This document shows positions 6,517 to 29,101 of a DNA stretch of 64,000 nt, piece after piece. The position numbers and the translations under genes were made by a program. Source of the stretch: Tahibacter aquaticus (lineage in GTDB: Bacteria > Pseudomonadota > Gammaproteobacteria > Xanthomonadales > Rhodanobacteraceae). Within the stretch, counting starts at the first letter, position 1. Every line of letters starts with the position of its first letter. The notes beneath the pieces were generated by a model that saw only the letters and a program-made list of their open reading frames with translations, did not search any database and was not told where the DNA came from. The stretch covers positions 334,451 through 398,450 of the forward strand of contig NZ_SNZH01000001.1 of NCBI RefSeq assembly GCF_004363655.1. Reading direction: 5' to 3'.

Positions 6517-9500
6517 ATGCAAACACCCACAAAACGCGGCCGAAGGGCAGCGCATGTTCTGTTGTTGCTCGGATCAGGACTAAGCCCGGCCGCATTCGCG
6601 GCGATCTCGGGCACGGTATTCCAGGACTTCAATTCCAACGGCCAGCGCGATCTCGGCGGCGTCGCCGCCGCGGTCGACCGCGGCATCGGCGGGGTCAGCG
6701 TACGCGCCTACGACGTCAGCGGTGCCTGCGGCGTGGCGGCCACCACCAGCAGCGTGCCGGCCAGCCTCGGCAGCTTCACGCTGAACGTCACCGGCTGCAG
6801 TGCAGCGGCGCCTCTGCGTGTCGAGTTCACCGGCTATCCGGCCGGCCTGCAACCCAGCTTCCACTCCCGCGCCTCCTCCGGCGCACCGGTGGCAACGCGC
6901 GGCGGCACGACCGTGCAGTTCGTCGCCGACGGCGCCAACAATGTGGAAGTCGGACTTAATGCCCCGGTCGAGTTCTGCCAGGACGATCCGCTGGTGGCCG
7001 TCGCCGAGCAGGCCTTCGGCGATCCCCAGGCCGCGGCCAACGCCTCCATCGATGCGGTCGTGCGCTTCCCCTATTCGCTGACCGGCAGCGTCGGCACGCC
7101 GCAACCCACCGGTCCGGTCGGCATAGCCGGCGTACCCGAGGTCGGCACGGTCTACGGCATGGCCTACGACAAGCTGCAGGACAACCTGTTCATCGCCGCC
7201 TATCACAAGCGCCACGCAGGCTTCGGTCCCGGCGGCACCGGCACCATCTATCGCGTCAACGCCGCGTCCAGCGGCGCCCCGGCGGCACCGGCCAGCTTCG
7301 TCGACCTGAATGCGGTATTCGGCCCCGCCACCACCGGCACCGATACCGTGCGCGGCAACTACGAAGGCGGCGCCGGTGGCGACACCACCTGGGACCAGGT
7401 CGGCAAAAGCGCGTACGGCGACCTGGAACTGAGCCTCGACGGCGCAAGCCTGTTCGCGGTGAACATGGCCGACCGCCAGTTGTATACGATTCCCACCAGC
7501 GGCGCGCTCAACACCACCACCATCACACGGCGGCCGATTCCCTCGCCCTGCACCACGGCAGCGGACGCGCGTCCGTTCGGCCTGGCGATGCGCGGCACCA
7601 CCTTGTACGTCAGCGGCGTCTGTTCGGCACAGTCCACTCAGCTCGCCGCCGATCTGCGCGCCTGGGTGTATGCCTACGACACCGTCGCCGGCACGTTCGG
7701 CGCCACGCCGGTGCTGCAGTTCGCGCTCAATTATCCGCGCGCAGCGGGCAATAGCGACGCGGTCAACGACCCCAGCGGCGATGCGATCTGGCGCGCCTGG
7801 TCGTCGGTCGCCGGCACGCCGGCAGCGACCAACAATTCGGTGTACGCCGAACCAATGTTCTCTGACCTGACCTTCGACGGCCCCGATCTCGTACTCGGCC
7901 TGCGCGACCGCCACGGCGATCACACCGGCACAGGCAACGTCGGCACCATCCGCGGCATTACCGCGGGCGAAATCCTGCGCGCCTGCGCCAACGGCGCGGG
8001 CGGCTGGAATCTCGAACAGGAAGGCAGCTGCGGCGGCGTCACTGGTGCCGCCGGCACGGCCACCAACCAGGCGCGCGGCCCGAACTCCGCCGGCAATACG
8101 CGCGGTGGCGAGTTCTATCCGCTGGACCACTACTCGGATACCTCGCCGCCGTTCTTCATCAACGACACGCCGCCGGACTACAACGGCCGTCACGATGAAA
8201 ACGCCCAGGGCGCGCTGATCCAGGTGCCCGGCTACGCCACGGTCGCCTCGACCATCATGGACCCGTTCCGCTTCAACTCGGGCGGCCTGCGCTGGTACAG
8301 CAACCTCACGCCGGCCGATCCGGCCAGCTCGCGCGGCTATGAAATCTTCCAGACCGGCAGCGGCGGTTTCTCCAAGGCCAACGGCCTCGGCGACGCCGAC
8401 GCGCTGTGCCGCGCAGCGCCGGTGGAGGTGGGCAACTATGTGTGGAACGACAGCAATCACAACGGCGTGATGGACCCGGGCGAAGCGCCCATCGCCAACG
8501 TAGTACTGAACCTGTACAGCAGCAGCGGCGCGGTGCTCGGCAGCGCGACCACCGATGCGAACGGCGAGTACTACTTCGTCTTCAGCCAGGGCGCGGCCGA
8601 CGCGAGCACGACGGACAACCTCATCGTCGCGCCAAATCCGTATTTCTCCACCTATACCATCGGCATCGTGCCGGCCAATTTCAGCGCCGGCGGCGCACTG
8701 GTCAATCTGCGTGCGACCGTGGCGAATACCGGCGGCGGCGGCGTAGCCGACCTGCGCGATTCCGACGGCGTGGCCGTGACCATTCCCGCCTCGACCACCA
8801 CGCTGGGAGCCGCTTTCACCCTGGCCGGTGCGGGCGACAACAACCACAGCATCGACTTCGGCTTCGGCTCGTTCGACTACGGCGATCTGCCCGACACCGC
8901 CGCCGGCAATGGCAGCGGCAACTACAACACCCTGGCGGCGGACAACGGCGCGGCGCACGGCATCGTGCCCGGCCTGTTCCTCGGCGCGACGGTGGATGCG
9001 GAAGCCGACGGCCAGCCCAATGCTGCCGCCAGCGGCGACGACAGCAACGGCACGCCCGACGACGAAGACGGCGTCACCGTTGCCGACCTCGCCCTGCGCG
9101 TAGGCCGTGCGCCGGCGGTACGCGTCAACGCAACCAATACCAGCGGCGCCGCGGCACAGCTGTGCGGTTTCATCGACTACAACGGCGACGGCGACTTCGC
9201 CGATGCGGGCGAAAGCGCCAACCTCGGCGTGCCCAACGGCAGCAATAACGCGGCATTCACGCTGAACTTCGGCGTGGTGCCGGCCGGTTCCGCCACGGCC
9301 AGTTATGCACGCTTCCGCCTCAGTACCGATGCGGGCTGCAGCGCCAGCGGCATCGCGACCAATGGCGAAGTGGAAGACTATACCGCCACCATCGCCGCGC
9401 TCGACTTCGGCGACCTGCCCGACGCGGCCGCCGGCACCGGCACCGGCAACTACAACACGCGCGAAGCCGACAGCGGCGCCAGCCATGTCATCGTCGGCGG

Positions 9501-12500
9501 ACTGTTCCTCGGTGCCGGCGTGGATGCGGAAGGCGACGGCCAGCCGAATGCCGCCGCCAGCGGCGACGACACCACGGGCACACCGGACGACGAAGACGGC
9601 GTCACCATCGCCGACCTGAGCATGGTCAGCGGCACCAGCGCCAGCGTGCGCGTCAACGCCAGCAACAGCGGCGCGGCGGCGCGCCTTTGTGGATTCGTGG
9701 ACTTCAACGGCGACGGCGACTTCGCCGATGCGGGCGAAAGCGCGACCCAGCCGGTCGCTGCCGGTGCCAGCAATGCGACCGTCACGCTGAACTTCGGCAC
9801 GGTGCCGGCCAATGCAGCGGCCAGCACCTATGCCCGCTTCCGCCTGGATCGCGGCGCTGGCGCCTGCAGCGCCACCGGCCCGGCCAGCGAAGGCGAAGTG
9901 GAAGACTATCCCGTGTCCATCGGCCAGCTCGACTTCGGCGATCTGCCGGATACGGGCGCCGGCAACGGCCCGGGCAACTACGCCACCCTGCTCGCCGACA
10001 ACGGTCCGCGCCATCCCATCGTCGCCGGCCTGCGCCTGGGCGCGAACGAAGACGGCGAAGCCGATGGCCAGCCCAGCACCGGTGCCAACGGCGACGACGC
10101 CAGCGGCACGCCGGACGACGAAGACGGCGTTGTGGTCGGCGATCTGTCGCTGATCGCCGGCACGGTCGCCCGCGTGCGCACCGCAGCAACCAATACCCTG
10201 GCGGTACCGGCCCAGCTCTGCGGCTTCGTCGATTTCAACGGTGACGGCGACTTCGCCGATGCCGGCGAAACCGCGCCTGCGGTGACCGTGCCGGTGGGCA
10301 GCAACGCCGCGCCGTTCACGCTCGATTTCGGCATCGTGCCGAGCAATGCCGCGCGCAACACCTATGCACGCTTCCGCCTGAGCACCAGCACCGCCGCCTG
10401 CACACCGGTCGGCCTGGCACCGGACGGCGAAGTGGAAGACAACCCGATCGCCATCGCCGCCACCGACTTCGGCGACCTGCCGGATACGGGCGCCGGCAAC
10501 GGTGCAGGCAACTATTCCACATTGCTTTCCGACGACGGCGCGCGTCACAGCATCGTACCCGGCCTGTTCCTCGGTGCCGGCGTGGATGCGGAAGCCGACG
10601 GCCAGCCCGGTACCAGCGCCAACAACGACGATGCCAACGGCACGCCCGACGACGAAGACGGCGTCAACACTGCCGACCTTGCCCTGCAGCGCGGCGTGGC
10701 ACCGGCCGTGCGCGTGACCGGCAGCAACAGCACCGGCAGCGCGGCGACGATCTGCGGCTTCATCGACTACAACGGCGATGGCGCCTTCAGCGCACCGGGC
10801 GAAACCGCCCAGGGCAGCCTGCCCAACGGCAGCAGCAATGCCCTGGTCACGCTGAACTTCGGCAGCGTGCCGAACAACGCGGTAGCGGCCAGCTATGCAC
10901 GCTTCCGCGTCTCCACCGCGGGCACCTGTTCGCCGAGCGGTGCGGCCATCGACGGCGAAGTCGAAGACTATCCGGTGAACATCGGCGCCGGCGTGTTGAG
11001 CCTGGGCAACCTGGTCTGGAACGACCGCAACAACAACGGCCAGGTCGACGCGGGCGAAGCCGGCCTGCCGGCCGTCGCCGTCGCGCTGTACCAGGACAGC
11101 AACAACGACGGCACGCCCGATGGCGCCGCGCTGGCCAATACCAGCACCGACACCAACGGCAACTACCTGTTCCAGAACCTCGACCCCGACAGCTACATCG
11201 TCGAGATCGTGCCGCCCGCCGGCTACCTGGGCAGCAGCTGCAGCGGTTTCCCGTATGCAACCAGTGGAACGTGCGAGCCTGCCGCCGATCCGGACAACGA
11301 TGCCGACAACGACGACAACGGTACGCTGGGCGGCGCGGTCATCCGCTCCGGCACGGTGACCTTGACGGTAGGCGGCGAGCCGACCAACGACGGCGACGGC
11401 AGCAACGGCAACCTCAGCGTCGACTTCGGCCTGCTCGGCAATTTCGACCTGGCCCTGACCAAGCGCCTGACGGCGGGCCAGACCGGACCGTTCATCGCCG
11501 GCCAGGATGTGTCCTTCGATATCACGGTGATCAACCAGGGCGGCATCGCAGCGCAGAACATCCTGGTCAACGACTACATCCCGGCCGGCCTGGCCTTGAG
11601 TCCGGCAGAAACCAACTGGACCTCGGTCTCGCCGACGCTGGCGACGCGTACCATCGCCGGCCCGCTCGCGGCAGGCGCCAGCACCAGCGTGACGATACTG
11701 CTGCGGGTGCAGCCGGCCGCAGGGTCGCCGCTGGTCAACCGCGCGGAAATCGGCGGCGCCGATGACGACGGCGATGCCAGCAACACGCCGCCGACCGACA
11801 TCGACTCCACGCCGGACAGCAATCCGGGCAACGATGCCGGCGGCACGCCGAACACCCCGTCTGACGACGCCACCGGCGGCAACGGCAGCGGCACGCCCGG
11901 CGACGGCGATGCGAACGGCGACGAAGACGATGCCGACCCGGCCTCGATCGGCACCGGCAGCGGTTCGGCCGTGCTCGGCGTGGCCAAGGCCGCGCAGGTG
12001 CTCAGCGTCACCGGTGGCGGCGGCTACGGCAGCGGCGCAGCACCGGGCAATGCAGATGTGGCCTATGTGCTGACCGTGCGCAACTACTCCAGCCAGCCGG
12101 TGGACACTCTGCAGGTGACGGAAAACCTTGTCGCCACCTTTGGCGCCGCGGCCAACTGGAGCGTCACCGGCGTCACCGCACCGAGCCTGACCTTGAACCC
12201 GGCGTTCGACGGCCGCAGCGTCACCAACCTGCTCGCCGGCACCGACACGCTGGCCGCCGGGGCGACCACGACGATCCGCCTGAGCGTGAACATCCGCTTC
12301 GAACCGGGCCGCACCTACAGCAACCAGGTCACCGCCAGCGGTAGCGTCGGTGGCGTGCCGGTCAGCGATCTGTCGCACAACGGCGTCAACCCGGCACCCA
12401 GCGGCGATCCGGGCGGCGACAGCGAACCGACCGTGATCACCCTGGGCAGCACCGCGGTACCGGCCTTGTCGGCACCGATGGTGGCCTTGCTGATCGGCGT

Positions 12501-12549
12501 GCTGGCTTTTGCCGGTCTGCGCCGGCGCCGGAGCAGTAGCGTGATGTAA
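6517..12549 (+). CDS. Giant SdrD-B/GEVED/DUF11 surface protein with an IPTL-like C-terminal tail
   Basis: 2010 residues; ATG preceded by TTGGGGATATAACA. A signal peptide (to about residue 28, SPAAFA) leads into an SdrD B-like domain (about 29-140). A non-repeat region with propeller-like phrases follows (150-620), then a second SdrD-B domain (about 636-745). Next come four tandem 176-178-residue GEVED modules beginning at about 786, 964, 1140 and 1318, each with a DEDG core and ending GEVED(Y/N). After these are a third SdrD-B domain (about 1494-1635), a DUF11 domain (1643-1755), an Asp/Gly-rich linker and another DUF11-like domain. The tail VPALSAPMVALLIG plus RRRR resembles IPTL-CTERM sorting signals (Val-Pro-x-Leu-Ser, one membrane helix, Arg cluster). 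The many Asp residues suggest calcium binding. A surface adhesin or matrix protein is inferred, not shown. Confidence 0.9.
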   Translation: MQTPTKRGRRAAHVLLLLGSGLSPAAFAAISGTVFQDFNSNGQRDLGGVAAAVDRGIGGVSVRAYDVSGACGVAATTSSVPASLGSFTLNVTGCSAAAPLRVEFTGYPAGLQPSFHSRASSGAPVATRGGTTVQFVADGANNVEVGLNAPVEFCQDDPLVAVAEQAFGDPQAAANASIDAVVRFPYSLTGSVGTPQPTGPVGIAGVPEVGTVYGMAYDKLQDNLFIAAYHKRHAGFGPGGTGTIYRVNAASSGAPAAPASFVDLNAVFGPATTGTDTVRGNYEGGAGGDTTWDQVGKSAYGDLELSLDGASLFAVNMADRQLYTIPTSGALNTTTITRRPIPSPCTTAADARPFGLAMRGTTLYVSGVCSAQSTQLAADLRAWVYAYDTVAGTFGATPVLQFALNYPRAAGNSDAVNDPSGDAIWRAWSSVAGTPAATNNSVYAEPMFSDLTFDGPDLVLGLRDRHGDHTGTGNVGTIRGITAGEILRACANGAGGWNLEQEGSCGGVTGAAGTATNQARGPNSAGNTRGGEFYPLDHYSDTSPPFFINDTPPDYNGRHDENAQGALIQVPGYATVASTIMDPFRFNSGGLRWYSNLTPADPASSRGYEIFQTGSGGFSKANGLGDADALCRAAPVEVGNYVWNDSNHNGVMDPGEAPIANVVLNLYSSSGAVLGSATTDANGEYYFVFSQGAADASTTDNLIVAPNPYFSTYTIGIVPANFSAGGALVNLRATVANTGGGGVADLRDSDGVAVTIPASTTTLGAAFTLAGAGDNNHSIDFGFGSFDYGDLPDTAAGNGSGNYNTLAADNGAAHGIVPGLFLGATVDAEADGQPNAAASGDDSNGTPDDEDGVTVADLALRVGRAPAVRVNATNTSGAAAQLCGFIDYNGDGDFADAGESANLGVPNGSNNAAFTLNFGVVPAGSATASYARFRLSTDAGCSASGIATNGEVEDYTATIAALDFGDLPDAAAGTGTGNYNTREADSGASHVIVGGLFLGAGVDAEGDGQPNAAASGDDTTGTPDDEDGVTIADLSMVSGTSASVRVNASNSGAAARLCGFVDFNGDGDFADAGESATQPVAAGASNATVTLNFGTVPANAAASTYARFRLDRGAGACSATGPASEGEVEDYPVSIGQLDFGDLPDTGAGNGPGNYATLLADNGPRHPIVAGLRLGANEDGEADGQPSTGANGDDASGTPDDEDGVVVGDLSLIAGTVARVRTAATNTLAVPAQLCGFVDFNGDGDFADAGETAPAVTVPVGSNAAPFTLDFGIVPSNAARNTYARFRLSTSTAACTPVGLAPDGEVEDNPIAIAATDFGDLPDTGAGNGAGNYSTLLSDDGARHSIVPGLFLGAGVDAEADGQPGTSANNDDANGTPDDEDGVNTADLALQRGVAPAVRVTGSNSTGSAATICGFIDYNGDGAFSAPGETAQGSLPNGSSNALVTLNFGSVPNNAVAASYARFRVSTAGTCSPSGAAIDGEVEDYPVNIGAGVLSLGNLVWNDRNNNGQVDAGEAGLPAVAVALYQDSNNDGTPDGAALANTSTDTNGNYLFQNLDPDSYIVEIVPPAGYLGSSCSGFPYATSGTCEPAADPDNDADNDDNGTLGGAVIRSGTVTLTVGGEPTNDGDGSNGNLSVDFGLLGNFDLALTKRLTAGQTGPFIAGQDVSFDITVINQGGIAAQNILVNDYIPAGLALSPAETNWTSVSPTLATRTIAGPLAAGASTSVTILLRVQPAAGSPLVNRAEIGGADDDGDASNTPPTDIDSTPDSNPGNDAGGTPNTPSDDATGGNGSGTPGDGDANGDEDDADPASIGTGSGSAVLGVAKAAQVLSVTGGGGYGSGAAPGNADVAYVLTVRNYSSQPVDTLQVTENLVATFGAAANWSVTGVTAPSLTLNPAFDGRSVTNLLAGTDTLAAGATTTIRLSVNIRFEPGRTYSNQVTASGSVGGVPVSDLSHNGVNPAPSGDPGGDSEPTVITLGSTAVPALSAPMVALLIGVLAFAGLRRRRSSSVM
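8872..10990 (+). repeat. Four tandem GEVED-domain repeats, about 530 bp each
   Basis: Units begin at about 8872, 9406, 9934 and 10468 with codons for F-(D)-(Y/F)-G-D-L-P-D, spaced 534, 528 and 534 bp. Each contains GTPDDEDGV and ends GEVED. The protein copies are strongly alike but differ at many positions, so this is an older in-frame duplication rather than a fresh one. Confidence 0.9.
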
Positions 12550-12595
12550 GCACCAAGGCCGGCGTTGCTGCGGCAATGCCGGCTGGCGGAAAACG

Positions 12596-12626
12596 AAAAG
12601 CGCAGCCGTCTGGCTGCGCTTTTTTG
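12596..12626 (+). terminator. Rho-independent terminator after the giant surface protein gene
   Basis: The stem AAAAGCGCAGCC / GGCTGCGCTTTT with loop GTCT is followed by a T-run. It lies about 47 bp past the stop at 12549. The A-run on the left side means it could also stop transcription coming from trxC on the other strand. Confidence 0.9.
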
Positions 12627-12749
12627 TTGGCTGGCGACTGGATCGCGCGTAGCGGCGGAGCGATGCCAAAGCACGGGCAGGCCGCCACCGACAAACCCAC
12701 AACGATAAATTTTAAAAACGTATAGTAAAAGCTGGCCGGCCGTAGCCTT

Positions 12750-17814: not shown

Positions 17815-20694
17815 CTAGCGCAGGCGTTCGTTGTCGAGGACAAGCTCGCTCGCGGCAATCACGTCGAGATTGGGATAGCTCGCGCGCAGGCCGTCGACGA
17901 ACCGCCTGGCATCGCCCACCACGACGATGCTCGCGCCCGACGGATCCAGCCACCGCGCCGCCGCGGCGCGCACCGCCCTGGCATCGACACGATCGACCGC
18001 GCGCGCAAAGCGCGTGGCCTCGGTCAGCGGCACCGACTGCAAGGCGAGATTGCCCAGCAGGTTCGCCAGCCCGTCCGCCGTTTCGATGGCACGGCCGAAG
18101 TTCCCGACCAGCAATTGCCGGCGCGTCGCGAGTTCGGTGGTCGGCACAAGCGCATCGGCGAGATTGCGCATTTGCGCCGTCATCAGTTCGACGACTTGCG
18201 CGGCGGCATCGTTTGCCGTCAGCGTCGCCGCGACGACGGCGCCGGGGCTGCGTCCGTCGAGCACAGCGCTGCCTGCGTCATAGCTCAGCGCGCGCTTGTA
18301 GCGGATCTCGCTGTTCAGCCGCGAGGAACCGCCGCCGCCCAGTGTCGCGTTCGCGACCAGCAGCGCATGGTAGGCGCGATCGCTGCGCGCCGCCGCCGGG
18401 TGCATGACCACGACCGCCGCTTCGGCAGCATCCGGCATATCGACCACGACGACTCGCGCTGCCGGCAACGCGGCGCGGCCCGGTTCGGCCCGCGGCACGG
18501 CCTCGGCGACACGCCAGTCGCCGAACGCCTGTTCGGCAAGCCGCCGCGCCGCCGCCGGCGCAACATCGCCGACAATCACCAGCGTGGCCGTCGCCGGCCG
18601 CCAGGCACGCGTATACGTCTGCACAATATCGTTCCGCACTATCGCCTTCAGCGCCGCCACGGTTCCGCTCTTCGGACTGCCGTAGGGCGTGTTGCCGAAC
18701 GCCACCCGCGCAGCGACCAGGCGGGCGAGCGCCATTGCATCCTGGCGCTGATCGTCCAGCACTTCGATGGCCTGCTCGCGGGCGCCGTCGATGTCGGCGA
18801 CGGCAAAGCGCGGGTTTCTCGCCACATCACCAAGCACGCCGAACCCCGCGGCGACGACATCGGATCGCACCGTCACGCTGATCGACGCGCCGTCCCAGCC
18901 GGCGCCGGTGCCGATGCTGCCGCCCAGCGACTCGATCTCGTTCGCAATATCGGCGCCGGATCGCGTCGCAGTGCCTTTCGTCATCAGGCTGGCGGTGAGT
19001 GCGGCGAGACCTGCCCGTCCGGGCGGATCTTCCGCACTGCCGGCCGGCGCGACCATCTTCAGGCTTGCCAGCGGCGCGCCATGGCGTTCGACCAGCACTA
19101 CGCGCAGGCCGTTGCGCAGGCGCCATTGCATCGGCGTCAAGGCAAAGCCGGCAGGCTTGCCGGCCGGCGGCAGCGCAATGCGCTGCTCCGCGTCGGCCGG
19201 TTTCACCACGCGCACGCCGGCCGGCGCCAGCAGCGTTTTCTGCACTACCGACGGGGGCACGTCGATGATGTCGGCCGGCGCGCCCGCCGCCGCAGCCTCG
19301 GCCGGCTGGTAGTGAATGATCGCAACGCGCCGGTCGACGAGATAGGTCGCCGCAACTCGCTGCACGTCCTGCGCCGTCACCGCGGCGATCGCAGCGAGCC
19401 GTTGCGCCGGCGCTGCCGGGTCATTCAGCACGACGACCGCCTTGGCGATTTCCGCGGCTTTGCCGTCCAGCGTTTCGCGCGCGCGCACGACGCGCGTCAG
19501 GATCTGATTCTTCGCACGGTGCAATTCCTGCGGCGTGACCGGCGCATCGCGCAGGCGTGCAACTTCCGCCTGCAATGCTGCCTCGCCATCGGCCGTCGCG
19601 ACCTCGCCCGACAGAATCGCGTAGACCGCCAGCGCGCCGCCGAGCTGGCGCTGCTCCAGCAGCGAAGCCGACTTTTGCGCGATGCGTTTGCCCTCGACCA
19701 GCGCTTGCTGCAGGCGCGAGCCGGCACCGGCAGAAAGCACGGCATCGAGCACCATCAGCGCGGGTGTGTCGGCGTGCGCTTCTGGCGGCACGGCGTAGCT
19801 CGCCACAACTGCCGGCGACGGCGTGCCGGTTTCATACACGACATGGCGAGTCGGCGCGGTACGCTCCGGCTCGACCACGTCGACACGCGGAACCGGCCAG
19901 ACGGGCTGCGCAATCGGCGCGAAATAATGGTCCACCAACGCGTCCAGCTGCGCCGGTTCGTAGTTGCCGGCAACCATCAGCACCGCATTGTCCGGCCGGT
20001 AATAGATCGCGTGGAACGCGCGCGCTTCGTCGACCGTCGCCGCATCGAGGTCGGCGATACTGCCCAGCGTAGGCCGCGCGTAGGGCAAGCGGCTGTACGA
20101 CACTTCGGGCAAATACATCTGCACCAGCTTGCCGTAGGCCTCGCCGAATACGCGCATACGGATTTCGTTCTTCACCACCTCGCGTTCCGCGGCGAAATCG
20201 GCCGGCTCGATGACCAGCCCCGACATCCGTTCCGCTTCGGCGAACAGGATGCGTTCAAGATACGCGGCAGGAACCGTCGTGTAGTAGCGCGTGTAGTCGT
20301 CTTCTGTCGAGGCATCGTTGGTGCCACCGACATCCTCCGCCAGCCCGACAAAACTGCCGGCGGGCAGATTGCGGGTCTGCTTGAACATCAGATGTTCGAA
20401 CAGGTGCGCGAAACCGAGCCCGCCTTTCGGGTCGTCCTTGCCACCGACCCGATACCAGACCTGCACCGAAACATTCGGCGTCGTCGTATCGCGGATCGCC
20501 AGCACACGCAGGCCGTTGGCGAGCGTTCGCTGCACATAGGCAGGCGGCGCAGCGCCGGCGTTGGCGAGTACCGGGGCGCCAGTCACCGGCTGCAACACGC
20601 ACAGGCCGACGAACACGGCGGCCAGCCAGCAGCGGAATCCACCCGCTGCCGGCCGCGCATCAGGCTTGCATTTCGGTATCACGATGGCTGCCAC
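17815..20694 (-). CDS. Secreted or periplasmic fused M16 zinc metallopeptidase
   Basis: 959 residues. The frame starts at GTG 20694; no in-frame ATG precedes the signal peptide (hydrophobic residues about 21-40, ending VTGA). The first M16 half carries the inverted zinc motif HLFEH (97-101) with the downstream Glu in AAEREVVKNE. The second half (from about 525) keeps the M16 fold phrases (MQWRLRNGLRVVLVE) but has lost the zinc motif. This is the usual arrangement of an active plus a structural domain in fused bacterial M16 enzymes such as pitrilysin relatives. It is expected to degrade small proteins or peptides outside the cytoplasm. It is the last ordinary chromosomal gene before the probable island. 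Confidence 0.9.
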   Translation of the reverse strand: MAAIVIPKCKPDARPAAGGFRCWLAAVFVGLCVLQPVTGAPVLANAGAAPPAYVQRTLANGLRVLAIRDTTTPNVSVQVWYRVGGKDDPKGGLGFAHLFEHLMFKQTRNLPAGSFVGLAEDVGGTNDASTEDDYTRYYTTVPAAYLERILFAEAERMSGLVIEPADFAAEREVVKNEIRMRVFGEAYGKLVQMYLPEVSYSRLPYARPTLGSIADLDAATVDEARAFHAIYYRPDNAVLMVAGNYEPAQLDALVDHYFAPIAQPVWPVPRVDVVEPERTAPTRHVVYETGTPSPAVVASYAVPPEAHADTPALMVLDAVLSAGAGSRLQQALVEGKRIAQKSASLLEQRQLGGALAVYAILSGEVATADGEAALQAEVARLRDAPVTPQELHRAKNQILTRVVRARETLDGKAAEIAKAVVVLNDPAAPAQRLAAIAAVTAQDVQRVAATYLVDRRVAIIHYQPAEAAAAGAPADIIDVPPSVVQKTLLAPAGVRVVKPADAEQRIALPPAGKPAGFALTPMQWRLRNGLRVVLVERHGAPLASLKMVAPAGSAEDPPGRAGLAALTASLMTKGTATRSGADIANEIESLGGSIGTGAGWDGASISVTVRSDVVAAGFGVLGDVARNPRFAVADIDGAREQAIEVLDDQRQDAMALARLVAARVAFGNTPYGSPKSGTVAALKAIVRNDIVQTYTRAWRPATATLVIVGDVAPAAARRLAEQAFGDWRVAEAVPRAEPGRAALPAARVVVVDMPDAAEAAVVVMHPAAARSDRAYHALLVANATLGGGGSSRLNSEIRYKRALSYDAGSAVLDGRSPGAVVAATLTANDAAAQVVELMTAQMRNLADALVPTTELATRRQLLVGNFGRAIETADGLANLLGNLALQSVPLTEATRFARAVDRVDARAVRAAAARWLDPSGASIVVVGDARRFVDGLRASYPNLDVIAASELVLDNERLR

Positions 20695-20824
20695 TCCCCG
20701 GATATACGGACTCGATCGCTGCGTTGCCGGCTAAGCGACCCATGGTCGCCTGGCGAGCCTGCCAACGGTATGCGACAGCGCCGGCCGGTGGATCAGCCAT
20801 TCGTACCGGGGCTGTCTCACACTT

Positions 20825-20965
20825 GAGCACCCTTGCGTCGGGCGCCTTGACCCAGAGCACGTCCTTCAGCCACATGCCGTCCCGGATATTTGTGCGCATC
20901 GCGTTTTCCGCGTAGCCGGACACCTCACTGAACTTGGGGATAGTGACGAACCTGATGCAGGTCAT
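20825..20965 (-). pseudogene. Excisionase (Xis)-like remnant, C-terminus lost
   Basis: From ATG 20965 the first 47 residues (ITIPKF-like opening RFVTIPKF, then SGYAENAMR, IRDGMWL, VWVKAPDARVL) match the helix-turn-helix part of phage/ICE excisionases. In those proteins KAPDGR-L is normally followed by a short IDxEGYExW ending. Here the frame instead continues into an unrelated stretch to 20660. Excisionases bend DNA and steer integrases toward excision. The truncated ending and the missing integrase suggest a dead remnant. Confidence 0.6.
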
Positions 20966-21200
20966 GTATTCGCTACCGCTGGACGATCCCGCCCGACTGC
21001 GATGCTGCACCCCGGCTCAGCGATGTCCGCACTCTTCTGCTCGTTTTGCATAAATCTCCGTCGATTTGGGCGTACGCGGCAGCAAATAAGAACGAGCGGC
21101 CAACCCAAATAAGCATTAATACAAAGATACCTTTCAACATAAGAAATATTTTGATACCAAAAACTTATGCTCTTATCACCATAAATCAACAGGTTACCAC

Positions 21201-21281
21201 CCTTCACGTGGAAGGCCCGAAGAAGGGCGTAGACTCAGGATGTTCCTCGCGAACATCTACGGGAACCTTCTACGTGGAAGA
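21201..21281. promoter_or_regulatory. Cluster of palindromes in front of the KaiC cassette
   Basis: CCTTC-ACGTG-GAAGG (21201-21215) recurs as CCTTC-TACGTG-GAAG (21266-21280). Between them lies GATGTTC-CTCGC-GAACATC (21239-21257), a perfect 7-bp dyad. The AT-rich block at 21040-21200 just upstream is the likely promoter region. The cluster overlaps candidate GTG starts, so a role in RNA structure or regulator binding is possible. Neither is proven. Confidence 0.4.
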
Positions 21282-21699
21282 CACGTTCAGCCCGCGGATT
21301 GCCGCCACTCTGAACCATAGACTCGGCCAGGATGCGACGTCGCCCCACATCGCCGATGTCGTGGTCGCCGTCTATCGGGAAATCGAGGGGGCTCTGACGC
21401 CCATTGTTGGACCAGGCGGCGTGGTCGCGCTCTATCAGCGCAGTCTGCATCTTGCCAAGGCGACCCATCACTGGATCGACATCTCCTCACCAGCGCAAAC
21501 CCCTCGCGTTGATTTTTCCACACTGCGAACTCTGCTGGCACAACAGACCGACGAGACGGCACTGGCCGGCGGCGTGGAAATACTGGAGAGATTCTCCCGG
21601 TTGCTCGTCAGTTTGATCGGCCTTTCGCTTTCGGAACAATTGCTCGGGGCGGTGTGGATTCAACCGCCCGCGGGTTCACCTGTCCAGGATGCCCCATGA
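21274..21699 (+). CDS. Small helical protein of unknown function, first gene of the KaiC cassette
   Basis: 141 residues if started at GTG 21274. No ATG occurs in this frame, a GTG at 21208 is an alternative, and the more upstream frame looks untranslated. The sequence is almost wholly predicted helix with heptad-like Leu/Ile/Val spacing (phrases RIAATLNHRLG, IVGPGGVVALYQRS, LLVSLIGLSLSEQLL). No membrane segment or catalytic motif is seen. Its stop overlaps the ATG of the KaiC-like gene (ATGA, 21696-21699), so the two are probably translationally coupled and act together. I do not recognise a named family; a regulatory partner of the ATPase or kinase is an inference from context. Start uncertain. 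Confidence 0.6.
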   Translation: MEDTFSPRIAATLNHRLGQDATSPHIADVVVAVYREIEGALTPIVGPGGVVALYQRSLHLAKATHHWIDISSPAQTPRVDFSTLRTLLAQQTDETALAGGVEILERFSRLLVSLIGLSLSEQLLGAVWIQPPAGSPVQDAP

Positions 21700-23201
21700 A
21701 CCACACAGCTACCATCCAGCGCCTCGGCACAGGCGTCCCCGGTTTGGACGAGGTTCTCGGCGGCGGACTGCCGGAGTTTTCGTTCAACCTCATTGCTGGT
21801 GCCCCCGGCTGTGGCAAGACAACACTGGCACACCAGATGATGTTTGCGATGGCGACCCCCGAGCGTCCGGCGATCTACTTCACGGTGCTGGGCGAACCGC
21901 CGTTGAAGATGCTCCGGTACCAGCAGCAGTTTTCCTATTTCGACAGCACGGCGATCAATCGTTCGATCCGTTTCGTCAACCTTTCGGACGACACGCTCAA
22001 GGGTGATCTGGGCGCGGTGCTGCAGCGCATCGTCGCGGAAGTTCGTGCCCACGATTCGGCGCTGGTTTTCGTCGATTCATTTCGATCGGTTGTGCTGGCC
22101 AGCACGACCGAGGGCAAGCCGAACCACGCCCTTCAACAGTTCGTACAGCAGCTGGGTGTGCTCATGACCAGCTGGCAAGCCACGACGTTTCTGATTGGCG
22201 AATATTTTGCGGAATCCGACGCCAATCCGGTGTTCACGGTGTGCGACGGCCTGATCTGGTTGCGCCAAAGCGTGGAGCGCAACTCGATGGTCCGCAAAAT
22301 GGAAATCGTGAAGATGCGGGGACAGTCTTCGTTGCCGGGCTTGCATACGTTCCGCATCACTTCGGCCGGCATCCAGGTCTTCGCACCCGCGCGTGCGGCC
22401 GCCATCGACGATCGCCCTGACTCAGGCGCGCTGGACTTTCGTCTGGGGATGGGGGTGCCCGGCCTGGACGACATGTTGGGCGGTGGCCTGCCGCGGGGCT
22501 ACTCCCTGCTGGTGGCCGGCCCCTCGGGTTCGGGCAAGAGCGTGCTGGCCGCAGCGTTCCTCGCAGAAGGCGCACGCCGCGGCGAGTCGGGCGTCATCGC
22601 GGCTTTCGAACGCCGGCCCAATCCCTTCTACAACCGGGCGCTGGCCGAACTGATTCGTAGCGATCGTGTGGCCCTGGTCGATCCCCAGGCTCCCGATCTG
22701 TCCATCGATGAAATCGTGCGTTTGTTGCTCGATGAGATCCATCGTCTGAAGGCCACACGTGTAGTCATCGATTCCCTGTCGGGCTTTGAGCTGGCGATCG
22801 CGCCAACCTTCCGCGCCGACTTTCGCGAATCACTGGCTCGCCTGGTCATGGCATTGGCTCATGCGGGCGTTTCGGTGCTGATGACATCGGAACTGGAAGA
22901 CCGATACACCGACCTTCGCTTCAGCCCCTACGGCACGGCGTTTCTGACCGACGCGATTATTGTTCAGCGATACATCGAAGTGCACAGCGAAATCAGACGC
23001 GTCATGGCGGTGGTCAAGGTGCGCGGAAGCACCCATTCGCACGAATTGCGCGAGTTCACCATTTCAACGGAAGGCATTTGCATCGGCGACAAACTGCCTG
23101 ACTACGTGGGCCTCCTGGGCGGTCGGCCAACGACGCACCATCCCGTTCAGGAGTGGGTTTCGAACCCACCCGCCGGTATGGGCACGGTCCCGGCGTCGTG
23201 A
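21696..23201 (+). CDS. KaiC-like double-RecA ATPase
   Basis: 501 residues with two tandem RecA/KaiC domains. The first begins RLGTGVPGLDEVLGGGLP and has Walker A GAPGCGKTT (35-43). The second begins LGMGVPGLDDMLGGGLP and has Walker A GPSGSGKS (about 275-282), with FERRP in the position of the KaiC catalytic-Glu segment. The C-terminal end (LTDAIIVQRYIEV, VKVRG, ELREFTIS) aligns with cyanobacterial KaiC, but the residues in the place of the autophosphorylated Ser-Thr pair appear to be Ala-Phe. No kaiA or kaiB is nearby. It overlaps the preceding gene by ATGA and the next by GTGA. A nucleotide-driven signalling hub or timer is plausible; a circadian role is not supported. Confidence 0.88.
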   Translation: MNHTATIQRLGTGVPGLDEVLGGGLPEFSFNLIAGAPGCGKTTLAHQMMFAMATPERPAIYFTVLGEPPLKMLRYQQQFSYFDSTAINRSIRFVNLSDDTLKGDLGAVLQRIVAEVRAHDSALVFVDSFRSVVLASTTEGKPNHALQQFVQQLGVLMTSWQATTFLIGEYFAESDANPVFTVCDGLIWLRQSVERNSMVRKMEIVKMRGQSSLPGLHTFRITSAGIQVFAPARAAAIDDRPDSGALDFRLGMGVPGLDDMLGGGLPRGYSLLVAGPSGSGKSVLAAAFLAEGARRGESGVIAAFERRPNPFYNRALAELIRSDRVALVDPQAPDLSIDEIVRLLLDEIHRLKATRVVIDSLSGFELAIAPTFRADFRESLARLVMALAHAGVSVLMTSELEDRYTDLRFSPYGTAFLTDAIIVQRYIEVHSEIRRVMAVVKVRGSTHSHELREFTISTEGICIGDKLPDYVGLLGGRPTTHHPVQEWVSNPPAGMGTVPAS

Positions 23202-24826
23202 ACGATCTGCCGGATCAGGCCGCGCTCGACGCAATGGAAGCGGCTTTGGAGCTGGCTGCCGTTCGACGCCAAACCCAGGTTGCCCGGGAGATGCTGACTC
23301 GACTGCGGCAGACCATCGTGGAGGCGATGAACGCAGCAGACAGCGATGCCGCGTCGCCCCTGCGGGCGGTCAACGAGCGGCTGGTTTGCTCGGCACTCAA
23401 GGCCCAGCTCGACGCCGACGATTGCAACAGGACCCTTGGCGAGGTTTCCCGCGCAGCCGAACATGATCCGTTGACGGAGCTACCCAACCGGGTGCTCTTC
23501 CATGATCGCCTCGAACAAGCCATCGCGCAGGCGCATCGCCACGGCACGCGATTGGCCGTGTTGTTTGTGGACCTCAACCACTTCAAGCAGATCAACGATA
23601 CGCTGGGCCACGCGATCGGCGACCAGGTCCTTCAACGGGCGGCCCACTCTTTGGCCGGCTGCATCCGCGAGAGCGACACCGTCAGTCGCCACGGAGGCGA
23701 TGAGTTCCTGGTCTTGCTCACCGAGGTGAAGCTGGCCGTTGATGCGGTCGCCATTGCCGACAAAATGACAACCACGCTCGGCGCGCCCAGCCGCTTCGGA
23801 AACAACGTACTTCGCCTGACAGCAAGCATTGGCATCAGTTTGTATCCCGACGACGGAGACGAGGCCGACGTACTTATTGATCGTGCCGACGCCGCCATGT
23901 ACCTGGCCAAGCGCCATGGCGTCGGGCGCTTTGTTTCACACGGCGCCTTGTTGGCCGGAAAGCAGCCTCCGCCAGCGCTGCCTTTGGCCGCACTTCGGCA
24001 GCCGCCGAACGCGCCGGAGGGGACAACCAGCGAAACCGAATACCATCTCAACCAATTGCGCGATGCCAACGAACAGCTCGTCAAGGCCGCCATCAGCGCA
24101 CAAGTCTTGCAAGGCAATGCCGAGCAGTCGCAACGTGATCAGATCCAATTTCTCGCCCTGCTGGCCCACGAACTGCGTTCGCCACTCGGGCCCATTCGCA
24201 TGGCTGCCAACTTGATGGGACGGCTCCCGGTGGCCGAGCACCCGAAGATGCATTCCATCATTGAGCGAGAGATCGGGCACATGACGCGGCTGGTCGATGA
24301 CCTGCTTGACGCTGGGCGCATCAACAGCGGCAAGATGAACTTGGAACGTCAGATCGTCAGTTTGGCCCATGTTGTCGATGGCGCAGCGAATGCGTGTCGA
24401 CCGGCGATGGATTTGCGGTTGCAGCACTTGGATGTTCGTCTTCCGTCATCGTCGACCAACATGCAGGGTGATCCCGTTCGCCTGGCTCAGATCGTTCGCA
24501 ATCTGCTCGACAACGCATCCAAATACACGGGCAACGGTGGACACATCATCCTTTCGCTCGAAGAGCCGGAAGGCCATCTCGTTCTGACCGTGGCGGATGA
24601 CGGTATCGGAATTGCTGCCGAAGCATTGCTCACCATCTTCGATCCCTACGTTCAAGAGAAGACGGCGGTCAATTTCAACCGCGCCGGCCTGGGCATCGGA
24701 CTCGCGGTCGTGCGGGAGCTGGTGGAAGCCCACGGCGGAACTGTCGTCGCTACCAGTGCCGGCGGCGGGAAAGGTAGCGAATTTGTCGTCAAATTTCCCG
24801 GATATAGCGGAGAAATACGCGAGTAG
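23198..24826 (+). CDS. GGDEF diguanylate cyclase fused to a histidine kinase
   Basis: 542 residues from GTG 23198, which overlaps the stop of the KaiC-like gene (GTGA). Residues 1-85 are a helical N-terminus without a known sensor. A GGDEF domain follows (about 90-255) with an intact RHGGDEF active site (166-170) and an RxxD inhibitory site (RESD) exactly five residues before it. After a helical linker comes a HisKA domain with the phosphorylatable His in LLAHELRSPL (H324). The HATPase domain has N-box NLLDNASKYT, DDGIGI and GLGIGLAVVR. All catalytic motifs look intact, predicting both c-di-GMP synthesis and autophosphorylation in one soluble protein. No receiver domain or cognate regulator lies nearby. 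Confidence 0.9.
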   Translation: MNDLPDQAALDAMEAALELAAVRRQTQVAREMLTRLRQTIVEAMNAADSDAASPLRAVNERLVCSALKAQLDADDCNRTLGEVSRAAEHDPLTELPNRVLFHDRLEQAIAQAHRHGTRLAVLFVDLNHFKQINDTLGHAIGDQVLQRAAHSLAGCIRESDTVSRHGGDEFLVLLTEVKLAVDAVAIADKMTTTLGAPSRFGNNVLRLTASIGISLYPDDGDEADVLIDRADAAMYLAKRHGVGRFVSHGALLAGKQPPPALPLAALRQPPNAPEGTTSETEYHLNQLRDANEQLVKAAISAQVLQGNAEQSQRDQIQFLALLAHELRSPLGPIRMAANLMGRLPVAEHPKMHSIIEREIGHMTRLVDDLLDAGRINSGKMNLERQIVSLAHVVDGAANACRPAMDLRLQHLDVRLPSSSTNMQGDPVRLAQIVRNLLDNASKYTGNGGHIILSLEEPEGHLVLTVADDGIGIAAEALLTIFDPYVQEKTAVNFNRAGLGIGLAVVRELVEAHGGTVVATSAGGGKGSEFVVKFPGYSGEIRE

Positions 24827-25026
24827 CAATCGATCAACGAATCGCTCGGCAACGCGGACCCGGCTGCACGCCGACATCGCTGCTCGCCGACAACCGCTGG
24901 CATCGGCGCCAGAACGAAGCCGCCCGACTTCAGGCCAACGCAATTTCTTCACACGTGCTGCACCTTCTACGGAGGACGCTGCTGTTCTGAGAAAAAATTA
25001 CAGATATGCTCATCAAAAGGTGATAA

Positions 25027-26325
25027 ATGATGGTGCCGTTTGCGCCTATACGCCCGGCCTTGCCAAGATTTCCCCAGTGCCATAGGCGGATGTCCGGAGC
25101 AGATTCCCTGTTTCTTCAATCGCTGCTCGAAGCACAAGGCATTATTGTCGGTGCAGGTACGGAACCTGGCAGCGTGATTGAAGCGATTTTGGAACAGGCG
25201 CAGGCCCTTACCGGCTCGGCTGGCGCTGTACTTGAGATGCTGGATGGCGATCAGCTGATCTACGGAGCTGCCAGTGGGAGCATGCAGCGGTTTCTCGGGC
25301 AGAAGTGCAGCGCGGAGAAAAGTCTGTCAGGCCTTTGCTCCCGGCTGAAATGCGTGCTCGTCTGCGACGACAGCGAAAACGACGCAAGAATCGATCACAA
25401 GGCCAGTATTCGCGACGGGACCCGTTCGCTGATCGTTGCTCCCCTGCCGTTTGACAACCGGACTATTGCAATCCTTAAAGTCGTTTCGCCCTACGCGTTT
25501 TCTTACGGGCCGGGTGACGTCATGGCTCTGGAACACCTCAGTGTCCTCATGGGGTTCGCGCTGGGCCAGGCCCGGGAACGCATGTTCGACAAGACTCTCG
25601 ATCGTGAAGAGTCTGAACTCCTACAGCAGACGCGCGAACGTGTTGAAGCCGTGATCGCCAGTGAATCTTTTGACATGGTCTATCAACCGATCTTCGATAT
25701 TGGCGAGCGACGCGAAGTAGGTCTGGAGGCGTTGGCACGCTTCCCTAACGCCAGCGAACCGACAGAATGGTGGTTGAGGGCAGCTGCGAATGTAGGACTC
25801 GGCGTCGAGTTTGAACTTGCCCTCGCAAAACGAGCGTTGGTCGAATTGGCTGTCGTGCCAGAAGAGTTATATGTCGCCGTCAACGTCTCCCCGGCAACCA
25901 TGATTTCCGACGGTCTGGCTCAACTGTGCGTGTCGCACAAAGCTGAGCGCATCATCCTGGAGCTCACGGAACATAGTTCCGTAGACGACTATGCAGAGCT
26001 ACTGGAGAGGACCCACTGGCTACGCCGGCACGGTGTGAAGATTGCCGTTGACGATGCCGGCGCAGGCTTCAGCACACTTCGCCATGTACTGCATGTGCAA
26101 CCGGACCTGATCAAACTTGACCGATCGATTACAGCATCCATTGACCAGAAGCCCGTGCATCAAACCTTGGTATCGGCGATGCTGACTTTCGCGAACGGTA
26201 CCGCAGCGGCCCTGGTTGCGGAAGGAATTGAAACTGACGCCGAGTTTGAAGTACTCGTCGAACTAGGAGTTCAGTTCGGGCAAGGCTTCTTCCTGGGCCG
26301 GCCGGCACCGCGCCCTGCTCGTTAG
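25027..26325 (+). CDS. GAF-EAL cyclic-di-GMP phosphodiesterase
   Basis: 432 residues. ATG 25027 is preceded by AAGGTG at good spacing; ATG 25090 is an alternative. Residues about 30-185 form a GAF-like sensor (QALTGSAGAVLEML, later SLIVAPL, ILKVVSP). The EAL domain covers about 205-428 with the key residues in place: E in GLEALARF (234), N in VNVSP, E in LELTEH, the DD of VDDAGAGFSTL, K in DLIKLDRS and E in AEGIETDAE. It should hydrolyse c-di-GMP in the cytoplasm under control of the GAF ligand. It follows the GGDEF-kinase gene by a 200-bp gap, so it may have its own promoter but belongs functionally to the cassette. Confidence 0.9.
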   Translation: MMVPFAPIRPALPRFPQCHRRMSGADSLFLQSLLEAQGIIVGAGTEPGSVIEAILEQAQALTGSAGAVLEMLDGDQLIYGAASGSMQRFLGQKCSAEKSLSGLCSRLKCVLVCDDSENDARIDHKASIRDGTRSLIVAPLPFDNRTIAILKVVSPYAFSYGPGDVMALEHLSVLMGFALGQARERMFDKTLDREESELLQQTRERVEAVIASESFDMVYQPIFDIGERREVGLEALARFPNASEPTEWWLRAAANVGLGVEFELALAKRALVELAVVPEELYVAVNVSPATMISDGLAQLCVSHKAERIILELTEHSSVDDYAELLERTHWLRRHGVKIAVDDAGAGFSTLRHVLHVQPDLIKLDRSITASIDQKPVHQTLVSAMLTFANGTAAALVAEGIETDAEFEVLVELGVQFGQGFFLGRPAPRPAR

Positions 26326-26525
26326 GGGCGAGAGTCCGCACGCAGCCTGCGCATCGACAGAGACCGCGGCGAGCCTATCTGCTGTGTCGGTTGATTTTTC
26401 CACCCACAGCCTATCCGAAACGGTTTGCCGGCGAACTGCGGGCTAGCCTCCCGCACCGCTGCGTACCTGCCACCGCGATAGGTTGCAGCGAACTCGCCTC
26501 GAATGGCCCACTCCGGAGCACCGTC

Positions 26526-26732
26526 ATGCAGCAACCATCCTTACCCGCCGCGATAGTCAATCAGCACTGGACGCAAACGTTACGCGACAGAAATCGCGTC
26601 GTTATCCGTCCGATTGCTGCGTCCGATGCCAAGGAAGAGCGGACTTTCATCGAAGGGCTCTCTGCAACGAGCCGAAGGCTCCGGTTTCTCGGGCGGCCAT
26701 CGCGGTGTACCGCACAGAGAACGCAATCATGA
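26526..26732 (+). pseudogene. Truncated GNAT acetyltransferase fragment overlapping xfp
   Basis: 68 codons from ATG 26526. The stretch [20 protein letters not shown], with [16 protein letters not shown] after it, is the N-terminal signature of GNAT domains of the type seen next to or fused with stress and acyl-CoA synthetase genes. The acetyl-CoA-binding part is absent. After RFLGR the frame drifts into unrelated residues and ends at a TGA overlapping the phosphoketolase ATG (ATGA, 26729-26732). It is probably a deletion remnant that may still be translated as a leader and couple ribosomes to xfp. Confidence 0.6.
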
Positions 26733-29101
26733 ACGCTCCGACGCTCGCGCCCGAACTGTCGCGGAAAATGGACGCCTACTGGCGCGCTGCCAACTACTTG
26801 TCTGTGGGCCAGATCTACCTGTTCGACAATCCGTTGCTGAGACGGCCGCTGATGCTGAGCGACGTGAAACCGATGTTGCTCGGCCACTGGGGCACGACAC
26901 CGGGACAGAACTTCATCTACGTGCATCTCAACCGGGTCATTCGCCAGTACGACCTCGACATGATTTACGTGTGCGGCCCAGGGCACGGCGGGCCGGCCGT
27001 AGTGGCGAACACGTATCTGGAGGGCAGCTACAGCGAGATTTACCCGCACATCGGCCAGGACGAAGCTGGGCTGCAAAAGCTCTTTCTCCAGTTTTCATTT
27101 CCCGGCGGCATTCCCAGCCACGCATCGCCGGAGTGTCCCGGCTCGATCCACGAAGGCGGCGAGCTGGGCTATTCACTGAGTCATTCGTTCGGCGCGGTGT
27201 TCGACAACCCATCGCTCGTCGTCGCGTGCGTGGTCGGCGATGGCGAGGCCGAGACCGGCCCGCTGGCCACGGCCTGGCACTCCAATAAATTTCTCGACCC
27301 GGCTTCCGACGGCGCTGTGCTGCCGATCTTGCACCTCAACGGCTACAAGATCGCCAACCCCAGCGTGCTGGCGCGCATAACACACGAAGAACTGGAACAA
27401 CTGTTCCTCGGCTACGGGTGGTCTCCGTTGTTCGTCGAAGGTTCCGACCCTGCACTCATGCACGAAGCGATGGCCAGCGCGCTCGACAGTGCGATTTTCC
27501 AGATCAAAGCCATCCAGCACAGGGCGCGCGTCGACGGAGATCTCGCCCGACCGCGCTGGCCGATGATCGTGCTGTCGTCGCCCAAAGGCTGGACCGGCCC
27601 TAAAGTTGTCGACGGTAAAACGATCGAAGGTACCTCTCGCTCACACCAGGTGCCTATATCGGCGCCCTCCGCTCAGCCGGCGCACCTAAAGCTGCTGGAA
27701 GATTGGCTGAAGAGTTACCGGCCAGAAGAACTGTTCGACGAGCGCGGACGGCTGAACGCCGAACTCACTGAACTGGCGCCTCAAGGCAACAGGCGCATGG
27801 GTGCAAACCCCCACGCAAACGGCGGCGCGCTCCTGCACGATCTACAGTTACCAGACTTCCGCGAGTATGCCGCGCCCGTTCCTGCGCCAGGTACTCCGGG
27901 CATCGGCGATACGCGCGTGCTGGGTCCGTTCCTGCGCGACGTGGCGAAGCGCAACGAGACACCTCGCAACTTCCGCGTGTTCGGACCGGACGAGACAGCC
28001 TCCAACGGATTGGCGGCGCTCTTCGATGTGACAAGCCGGCAGTGGGAAGCGGCGACTCTGCCGAACGACGAGTTCCTTGCGCACAGTGGCGGCGTGGTCG
28101 ATTCGATGCTGAGCGAGCACCAATGCCAGGGCTGGCTTGAAGGCTACCTCCTGACCGGGCGGCATGGCTTGTTCAACTGCTACGAGGCCTTCATCCACAT
28201 TGTGGATTCGATGTTCAACCAGCACGCCAAATGGCTGAAGGTCAGCGCCCAGTTACCGTGGCGCCGCCCGGTCGCGTCGCTGAACTACCTTCTGGCTTCG
28301 CACGTCTGGCGCCAGGACCACAACGGCTTTTCGCACCAGGATCCCGGTTTCATCGACCACGTCACCAACAAGAAGTCCGGCGTGGTACGCGTTTATCTGC
28401 CGCCCGATGCGAACTGCCTGTTGTCGGTGATGGACCACTGCCTGCGCAGCCGCCACTACGTCAATGTCGTCGTTGCCGGCAAGCATCCGGCACCGCAATG
28501 GCTGGACATGGATGCGGCGGCCGAACACTGCGCGGCCGGCATCGGCATCTGGTCCTTCGCAAGCAACGATGCAGGCCAGGAGCCGGATGTCGTCATGGCG
28601 TGCTGTGGCGACGTGCCGACACTGGAGACGCTGGCCGCGGTTTCCATCCTGCGCGAACACCTGCCGGCGCTGAAAATTCGCGTGGTCAATGTCGTCGACC
28701 TGATGCGCTTGCAACCGCGGAGCGAACACCCGCATGGATTGAGCGATGCGAACTTCGACGCGCTGTTCACGTGCGACAGGCCTGTGATCTTCGCGTTTCA
28801 TGCGTATCCGTCGCTGATTCACAAGTTGACGTACCGCCGCACCAACCACCGCAACATCCACGTTCGCGGCTACAAGGAAGAAGGCACGACCACCACGCCC
28901 TTCGACATGACTGTACTCAACGACATGGATCGGTTCCATCTCGCGATCGACACCATAAATCGCCTGCCAAAAACCGGCGACGAGGGCTTGGAACTCAAGC
29001 AGCGGCTTGAGGCGAAGCTGATCGAGCACAGGCTGTACATCAATCGAAACGGCCAGGACATGCCCGAGATCCGGAACTGGCGCTGGGCGCACAGACCATG
29101 A
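26729..29101 (+). CDS. xfp: Xylulose-5-phosphate/fructose-6-phosphate phosphoketolase
   Basis: 790 residues, the normal length for the family. It starts at ATG 26729 with a typical opening ([20 protein letters not shown]). Signature phrases are present: [27 protein letters not shown] and the thiamine-diphosphate site [18 protein letters not shown]. The enzyme splits xylulose-5-P or fructose-6-P with phosphate to acetyl-phosphate plus a triose or tetrose phosphate, using ThDP and Mg in the cytoplasm. It is often partnered by acetate kinase or phosphotransacetylase, but neither is in this window, so acetyl-phosphate would have to be used elsewhere. It overlaps the stop of the GNAT fragment and lies in the probable island next to a transposase remnant, consistent with acquisition by transfer. 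Confidence 0.95.

Follow-up and report, generated by a model that had tools for sequence, protein, structure and literature searches.

A conserved gene set joining a small helical protein, a KaiC-like ATPase and coil-bearing output proteins in Tahibacter aquaticus and other bacteria

KaiC homologues are widespread beyond the cyanobacteria, often without a clear function. In the cyanobacterial clock, the KaiC ring controls the soluble histidine kinase SasA, and KaiC homologues of environmental Pseudomonas are reportedly the subject of a 2023 paper by Terrettaz et al. The stretch analyzed here, 64,000 nucleotides of Tahibacter aquaticus DNA (contig NZ_SNZH01000001.1, positions 334,451 to 398,450 of the forward strand; the window), contains a cassette in which the gene for a small helical protein is followed by that for a KaiC-like ATPase and by that for an output protein combining a GGDEF domain with a histidine kinase. 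With its relatives in other genomes, this gene set makes up a signalling module that is conserved but patchy in its distribution, and its KaiC, which lacks the clock phosphosites, suggests a switch driven by ATP and not a clock. A KaiC with a fixed small partner, a coil and varied outputs makes KaiC action without KaiA, KaiB or phosphorylation testable and ties it to cyclic di-GMP (c-di-GMP).

Relation to described KaiC systems

Bacterial kaiC genes beside kinase or GGDEF/EAL genes have been reported since 2011, as the accessible part of a paper on Ramlibacter tataouinensis describes (PMC3164672). In that text, the group 3 ('black') KaiCs occupy varied, less conserved contexts, and AF is among their phosphosite profiles. 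The module shares with group 3 the poorly conserved KaiC phosphosites and the kinase, receiver or GGDEF/EAL genes nearby; on the other hand, group 3 as described there lacks a conserved small partner, a coil and a set order of three genes. The KaiC-Nt_HK pairs of group 2 (Rta_04330/Rta_04340) resemble the module in that a kinase directly follows KaiC and kaiB is absent. However, according to the same part of PMC3164672, group 2 KaiCs carry SY, TY or SF phosphosites, whereas the window KaiC has AF, and the N-terminus of the group 2 kinase (the RtaNt domain) is likened to a receiver and weakly to SasA and KaiB. The window output gives only GGDEF, HisKA and HATPase_c in Pfam, after its N-terminal coil. 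Another KaiC of the window genome (contig C4, L016 4150-7720), with Ser-Tyr phosphosites and a PAS-kinase-receiver protein encoded next, looks closer to Ramlibacter group 2 than the module KaiC does.

The pairing of a KaiC ring with a soluble histidine kinase that it would control also recalls KaiC and SasA. Unlike in SasA, Pfam finds no KaiB-like domain in the kinase; a coil is found instead, a GGDEF domain is added, and the clock phosphosites of KaiC are gone. BcsE, in the accessible text of PMC7439463, likewise ties a predicted RecA/KaiC-like fold to c-di-GMP and a GGDEF-like module, but its ATPase motifs are divergent and lie in the same chain, whereas the module consists of separate proteins with intact Walker motifs. 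The literature searched yielded no account of the small protein, of the coil or of the GGDEF-kinase output; Makarova 2017 or Terrettaz 2023 could contain one. An earlier note on this DNA knew of no described system with exactly this set; in the literature searched this stands for the small protein and the fused output, but not for KaiC beside a kinase or GGDEF/EAL gene, as published in PMC3164672.

Conservation of the gene set and of the coil

The small gene, KaiC gene, output gene and GAF-EAL gene were all found as described in the earlier note, and the coordinates (Table 1) bear out the end-to-start overlaps, ATGA and then GTGA, that it had reported among the first three. In the Pfam scan, the KaiC gene gave two KaiC domains and the EAL gene gave GAF_2 and EAL. 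The GTG start of the small gene matches the onset of similarity to T. soli, the reading frame itself extending open farther upstream.

A profile of five small proteins, run against the named genome collection, recovered 36 loci from beta- and gammaproteobacteria plus Oryzomonas (Geobacteraceae), and a 38-sequence profile matched 7 of 369 genomes of the class, 4 of 398 of the phylum and 23 of 233 of the family (window genome counted each time). The resulting census, at a cut of 38 bits and including the profile's own sequences, comprises 63 distinct small-protein genes; L107 and L111 were removed as duplicates of L042 and L039, and the plasmid loci L140-L142 and the divergent L129 and L128 stand outside it. 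A KaiC of the module type directly follows the small gene in 58 of the 63, and an ATGA overlap joins the two in 48 of these loci. In the reverse search, 339 class genomes contained 8 with a module-type KaiC at E<=1e-100. Seven of these carry the small gene upstream: six were found independently, and the match in G232, directly upstream, is weak (23.9 bits). The gene after KaiC was classified at the 52 KaiC-bearing loci with more than 2.9 kb downstream, those with 2.9 kb or less being left out. It encodes GGDEF plus kinase at 33 loci, a kinase without GGDEF at 9, GGDEF without a kinase at 4 (three of them GGDEF-EAL) and neither at 6. The window genome holds 36 GGDEF matches among an assumed ~6,000 genes, so that a random neighbor would carry GGDEF in <1% of cases, versus 37 of the 52 loci; this and the recurrent gene order rule out a chance cluster. 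The co-occurrence of small-protein, KaiC and GGDEF-kinase genes, for which the earlier note had proposed a search, is thus conserved.

Further copies were seen within the same genome and on plasmids. The second copy in the window genome (contig C17, L015 5207-8348) has a kinase output with two coils and no GGDEF. Three Caballeronia plasmids carry the small gene and KaiC; on the Caballeronia plasmid pSBC2-3 (L141 4995-7300), the module copy has an interrupted KaiC frame and lies near an IS110 transposase. A Paracoccus plasmid (L142 4038-7156) encodes a small protein of distant type, which scores 29.7 bits against the 38-sequence profile and 47.9 against a wider one, together with a distant KaiC with Ser-Phe at the phosphosite positions as judged by eye, an HWE kinase and a separate receiver, with insertion sequence (IS) elements on both sides. 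An iterated profile included L129, which makes its score of 80 bits for that locus circular, and the score was set aside; neither L142 nor L070 was part of that profile. At L115 (9209-9703), an extra small-protein gene lies downstream of a complete module and is followed by an opposite-strand gene. A small-protein match in G035 (L013/L020) was antisense to a 917-aa open reading frame (ORF) and was discarded as chance.

The window KaiC belongs to the KaiC family (PF06745), with two RecA-type KaiC domains bearing Walker A and B. Positions in the module KaiCs were assigned by alignment to solved KaiCs, and the names S431 and T432 follow the S. elongatus KaiC numbering. Walker A and B residues are preserved in all 53 distinct full-length module KaiCs; the S431 position is Ala in 51 and the T432 position is Phe in 52, the window having A and F. 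The second CII glutamate is replaced by Gln in 43 of the 53 and by Arg in the window; in every one, the CI glutamate pair reads Gly-Glu. Profiles for kaiA (PF07688) and kaiB (PF07689) find nothing in the window genome, the S. elongatus control being positive for both, which supports the absence of these genes given in the earlier note. With no kaiA, no kaiB and no Ser431/Thr432-type CII phosphosites, the locus falls outside the KaiABC clock. To judge by its sequence, the module KaiC likely forms an ATP-using ring and likely does not undergo a phosphorylation cycle at the clock sites. Since these phosphosites are lost, the time-dependent form of the switch suggested in the earlier note is unlikely if meant as one of the KaiABC type. 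The remark of that note that all catalytic motifs are intact is correct for Walker A/B, GGDEF, the RxxD I-site, the kinase boxes and the EAL residues, but not for the KaiC phosphosites, which are A/F, or the glutamate pairs, which are altered.

The structure model of the small protein is all-helical, with a mean predicted local distance difference test score (pLDDT) of 85 and one 40-residue helix. In 38 sequences, the residues G46, L53, F107, G116, L119, E121, L123 and W128 are invariant, and no His, Asp or Cys is, including the invariant His expected of a phosphotransfer-type protein; an adaptor would therefore fit better than an enzyme or a phosphotransfer protein. The window protein has no Pfam match, and over the 38 members none passed the cut-off (best E 0.0034 for DUF4235 in one member, and 0.006 for FCD, best of two members). 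The PDB sequence search with the profile gave no convincing match (best E 0.38), and the fold search with the model gave no confident one; KaiA is not among the matches listed, which is uninformative. Anti-phage defence was set aside as a function of the cassette, as PADLOC gave no match to the small protein and only partial ones (best E 4e-14, mad8) to regions of the ATPase and the kinase.

The window output carries the GGDEF active site, metal residues and I-site of a diguanylate cyclase and the phospho-His, N, G1 and G2 boxes of a histidine kinase. Across the window output and its relatives, the I-site Arg is present in 38 of 44 GGDEF domains, the I-site Asp in 41 and the GGDEF Asp in 42, and the kinase His in 43 of 44 kinase domains, counts that still include the duplicates L107 and L111. 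At L046, GGDEF and kinase lie in separate reading frames, and three of six kinase-only outputs scanned with Pfam are kinase-receiver hybrids (L068, L069, L100). The KaiC tree has some forks with weak support; its 46 labelled rows (9 of the 55, with doubtful outputs, were left unlabelled) require a minimum of 9 changes of output type, or 7 when the presence of GGDEF is scored.

Ahead of the output domain, nearly all output proteins have a coil of ~30 residues with the consensus LREANEQLVxAALxAQxLxxxAExAxxRQ, which scores >5 bits in 51 of 52 third genes. The commonest layout is coil-GGDEF-coil-HK, where HK is the histidine kinase (29 proteins), followed by coil-GGDEF (6), coil-HK (5) and coil-coil-HK (4); the rest are GGDEF-coil-HK (3), coil-GGDEF-EAL (3), coil-GGDEF-HK (1) and GGDEF-EAL without a coil (1). 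The four kinase-only proteins with two consecutive coils and no GGDEF look like the standard output with GGDEF removed, although the first copy reaches just 6-7 bits in two. A separate profile (A3) was built from 12 coil copies. Its 9 matches in 17 chosen genomes, 9 with the module and 8 without, all fell in module output genes, and there was no match in the 8 genomes without the module. The 369 class genomes, a set that overlaps with the chosen one, yielded 6 matches from 5 genomes. Five of the matches are in module output genes; the sixth (G367) is in a GGDEF gene that overlaps a truncated KaiC frame. Because its matches are almost confined to module output genes, the coil comes near to marking the module's partners and offers a simple handle for locating outputs.

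Proposed control of the outputs and competing readings

Based on these sequences, we propose with moderate confidence that the small protein and the KaiC ring control coil-tagged, exchangeable outputs, mostly for c-di-GMP synthesis. The small helical protein and the KaiC ring without clock phosphosites would form an input core, which may act on its partner in a complex through the dedicated ~30-residue coil ahead of the output domain. In the window, this partner would be the GGDEF-histidine kinase, leading to c-di-GMP synthesis and probably also to phosphotransfer to some receiver. KaiC would most likely act by its nucleotide state, as an ATP- or ADP-bound ring, rather than by cycling through autophosphorylation at the clock sites, and the small protein may be an adaptor or effector that docks close to the coil. 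A more far-reaching extension, which we offer tentatively, is a phosphorylation-independent class of KaiCs in which the small protein replaces KaiA and KaiB and the pair reads ATP/ADP and drives interchangeable outputs through the plug-like, module-specific coil. With the same reserve, these outputs would include a c-di-GMP cyclase, cyclase-kinase, cyclase-phosphodiesterase, kinase and kinase-receiver.

Several observations weigh against control of coil-tagged outputs by the small protein and KaiC. The coil model was built from 37 segments of the same output proteins with a cut of 5 bits, and many first copies reach only 5-20 bits. Five of the nine matches in the chosen genomes fall in proteins used for the 12-copy profile and four in unused ones; the informative part of that search is the absence elsewhere, which is valid only at that sensitivity, and the profile misses true members, namely, the module genome G334 and the small-protein carriers G187 and G214, the latter fused. 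A hybrid kinase on a Caballeronia plasmid (L140 8531-9913), convergent with the module and outside it, carries the coil. G076 has a module-type KaiC but neither a small gene nor an output gene was seen, and the output position holds neither GGDEF nor a kinase at the six loci counted above. Five of the 63 small genes have no adjacent KaiC, and three of these loci (L056, L110, L112) retain coil-bearing outputs, so that KaiC is possibly dispensable or acts in trans. Pairwise distances among the module parts are correlated (r 0.68-0.78), but shared descent would give the same. The hybrid kinase at L140 is, for its part, a possible phosphotransfer partner.

The KaiC-less loci speak for the reading that the cyclase/kinase is regulated directly by the small protein, acting as its sensor subunit, with KaiC added as a scaffold or gain control. 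At L070 (6519-7637), the small protein is fused to GGDEF in a single frame with no KaiC found alongside, and at L056, L110 and L112 the small gene directly precedes GGDEF or GGDEF-kinase. The coil is unrecognizable in the fusion (0.4 bits) and kept at the three loci with a separate small gene, which hints, from few cases, that the coil may serve the small protein. This reading has to accommodate the KaiC that directly follows nearly all small genes, and among the six pairs tested, small protein and KaiC show the closest agreement in distance by a small margin (r 0.78, versus 0.77 for small protein and kinase); we regard it as rather unlikely, though worth keeping in view. Rhythms of c-di-GMP driven by KaiC as a timer, whether hourglass or clock, would be in keeping with the double-domain KaiC and its intact Walker motifs, with the timer role proposed for the Ramlibacter KaiC-kinase pair in the accessible part of PMC3164672 and with the influence of c-di-GMP on the S. 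elongatus clock given in that of PMC13001216. This reading is nevertheless very improbable, since Ala and Phe occupy the phosphosite positions almost throughout, the window genome gives no KaiA or KaiB match, and KaiCs unable to phosphorylate two residues probably cannot sustain a cycle, as argued in the same part of PMC3164672.

That the genes merely travel together as a mobile or selfish cluster is, in our judgment, the least credible possibility. The patchy spread in the class and family genomes and the plasmid copies, two of them near IS elements, would suit it, but the coil stays while the output domain changes, coil matches beyond the module are nearly absent, and the plasmids were typed as non-mobilizable. 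The opposing phosphodiesterase that the earlier note had counted as a component raises another possibility, a switch of four genes whose GAF-EAL enzyme works against the GGDEF enzyme. The EAL gene is next on the same strand, and its product has the EAL motif and the metal and catalytic residues. An EAL domain on the same strand within 6.5 kb was found at 8 of the 42 loci with that much sequence downstream, the search using a single sequence that divergent EAL domains may escape. Only 5 of the 8 are separate genes, however, the other 3 lying inside a GGDEF-EAL output, and the window has the only GAF-EAL neighbor among the loci mapped, the other EAL ones being GGDEF-EAL. At the module of T. soli, the nearest relative, no EAL gene was found, and the GAF-EAL homologue there, at 42% identity, lies on a different contig. 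The gap after the output gene is ~263 bp, with the start more likely at 25090 than at 25027 on the basis of a ribosome-binding-site-like GGCGG, and RNA folding of this gap gave no more structure than shuffles (z 1.14). The rarity of separate EAL genes and the position of the T. soli homologue place the phosphodiesterase outside the conserved set, and the four-gene switch is improbable.

Features and surroundings of the window locus

The coordinates of the cassette and its domains are collected in Table 1.

Table 1. Genes and domains of the cassette, in window positions
Feature	Position	Strand	Basis
Small all-helical protein, unnamed family, KaiC partner; 141 aa, GTG start	21274..21699	+	ORF, Pfam scan, structure model, fold search
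KaiC-like double RecA-fold ATPase; 501 aa, ATG start, ATGA overlap with small gene	21696..23201	+	ORF, Pfam, alignment
KaiC first domain (CI); Walker A GAPGCGKTT; TVLGEPP where clock KaiCs carry the Glu pair	21726..22388	+	Alignment
KaiC second domain (CII); Walker A GPSGSGKSV; first catalytic Glu retained; A/F at S431/T432 positions	22449..23090	+	Alignment
Output protein, coil-GGDEF-coil-HisKA-HATPase_c; 542 aa, GTG start, GTGA overlap with KaiC gene	23198..24826	+	ORF, Pfam, coil model
Module coil copy 1, ahead of GGDEF; 16 bits	23360..23449	+	Coil model
GGDEF domain with active site and RxxD I-site	23456..23920	+	Pfam, motif check
Module coil copy 2, ahead of HisKA; 45 bits	24056..24145	+	Coil model and profile
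HisKA and HATPase_c with H, N, G1 and G2 boxes; receiver domain absent	24140..24799	+	Pfam, motif check
Predicted GAF-EAL phosphodiesterase, outside the conserved module	25090..26325	+	ORF, Pfam (GAF_2 and EAL), motif check

A promoter scan of 20800-26700 found none. Directly upstream of the small gene, an A+T-rich stretch (window 21000-21199, GC 0.435 compared with ~0.60 nearby) is possibly regulatory. The cassette is preceded by an M16-type peptidase gene on the minus strand (17815-20694) and followed downstream by a phosphoketolase gene (26483-29101). Farther away, window 6517-12702 contains overlapping, very long ORFs on both strands, of 2010 and 2040 codons.

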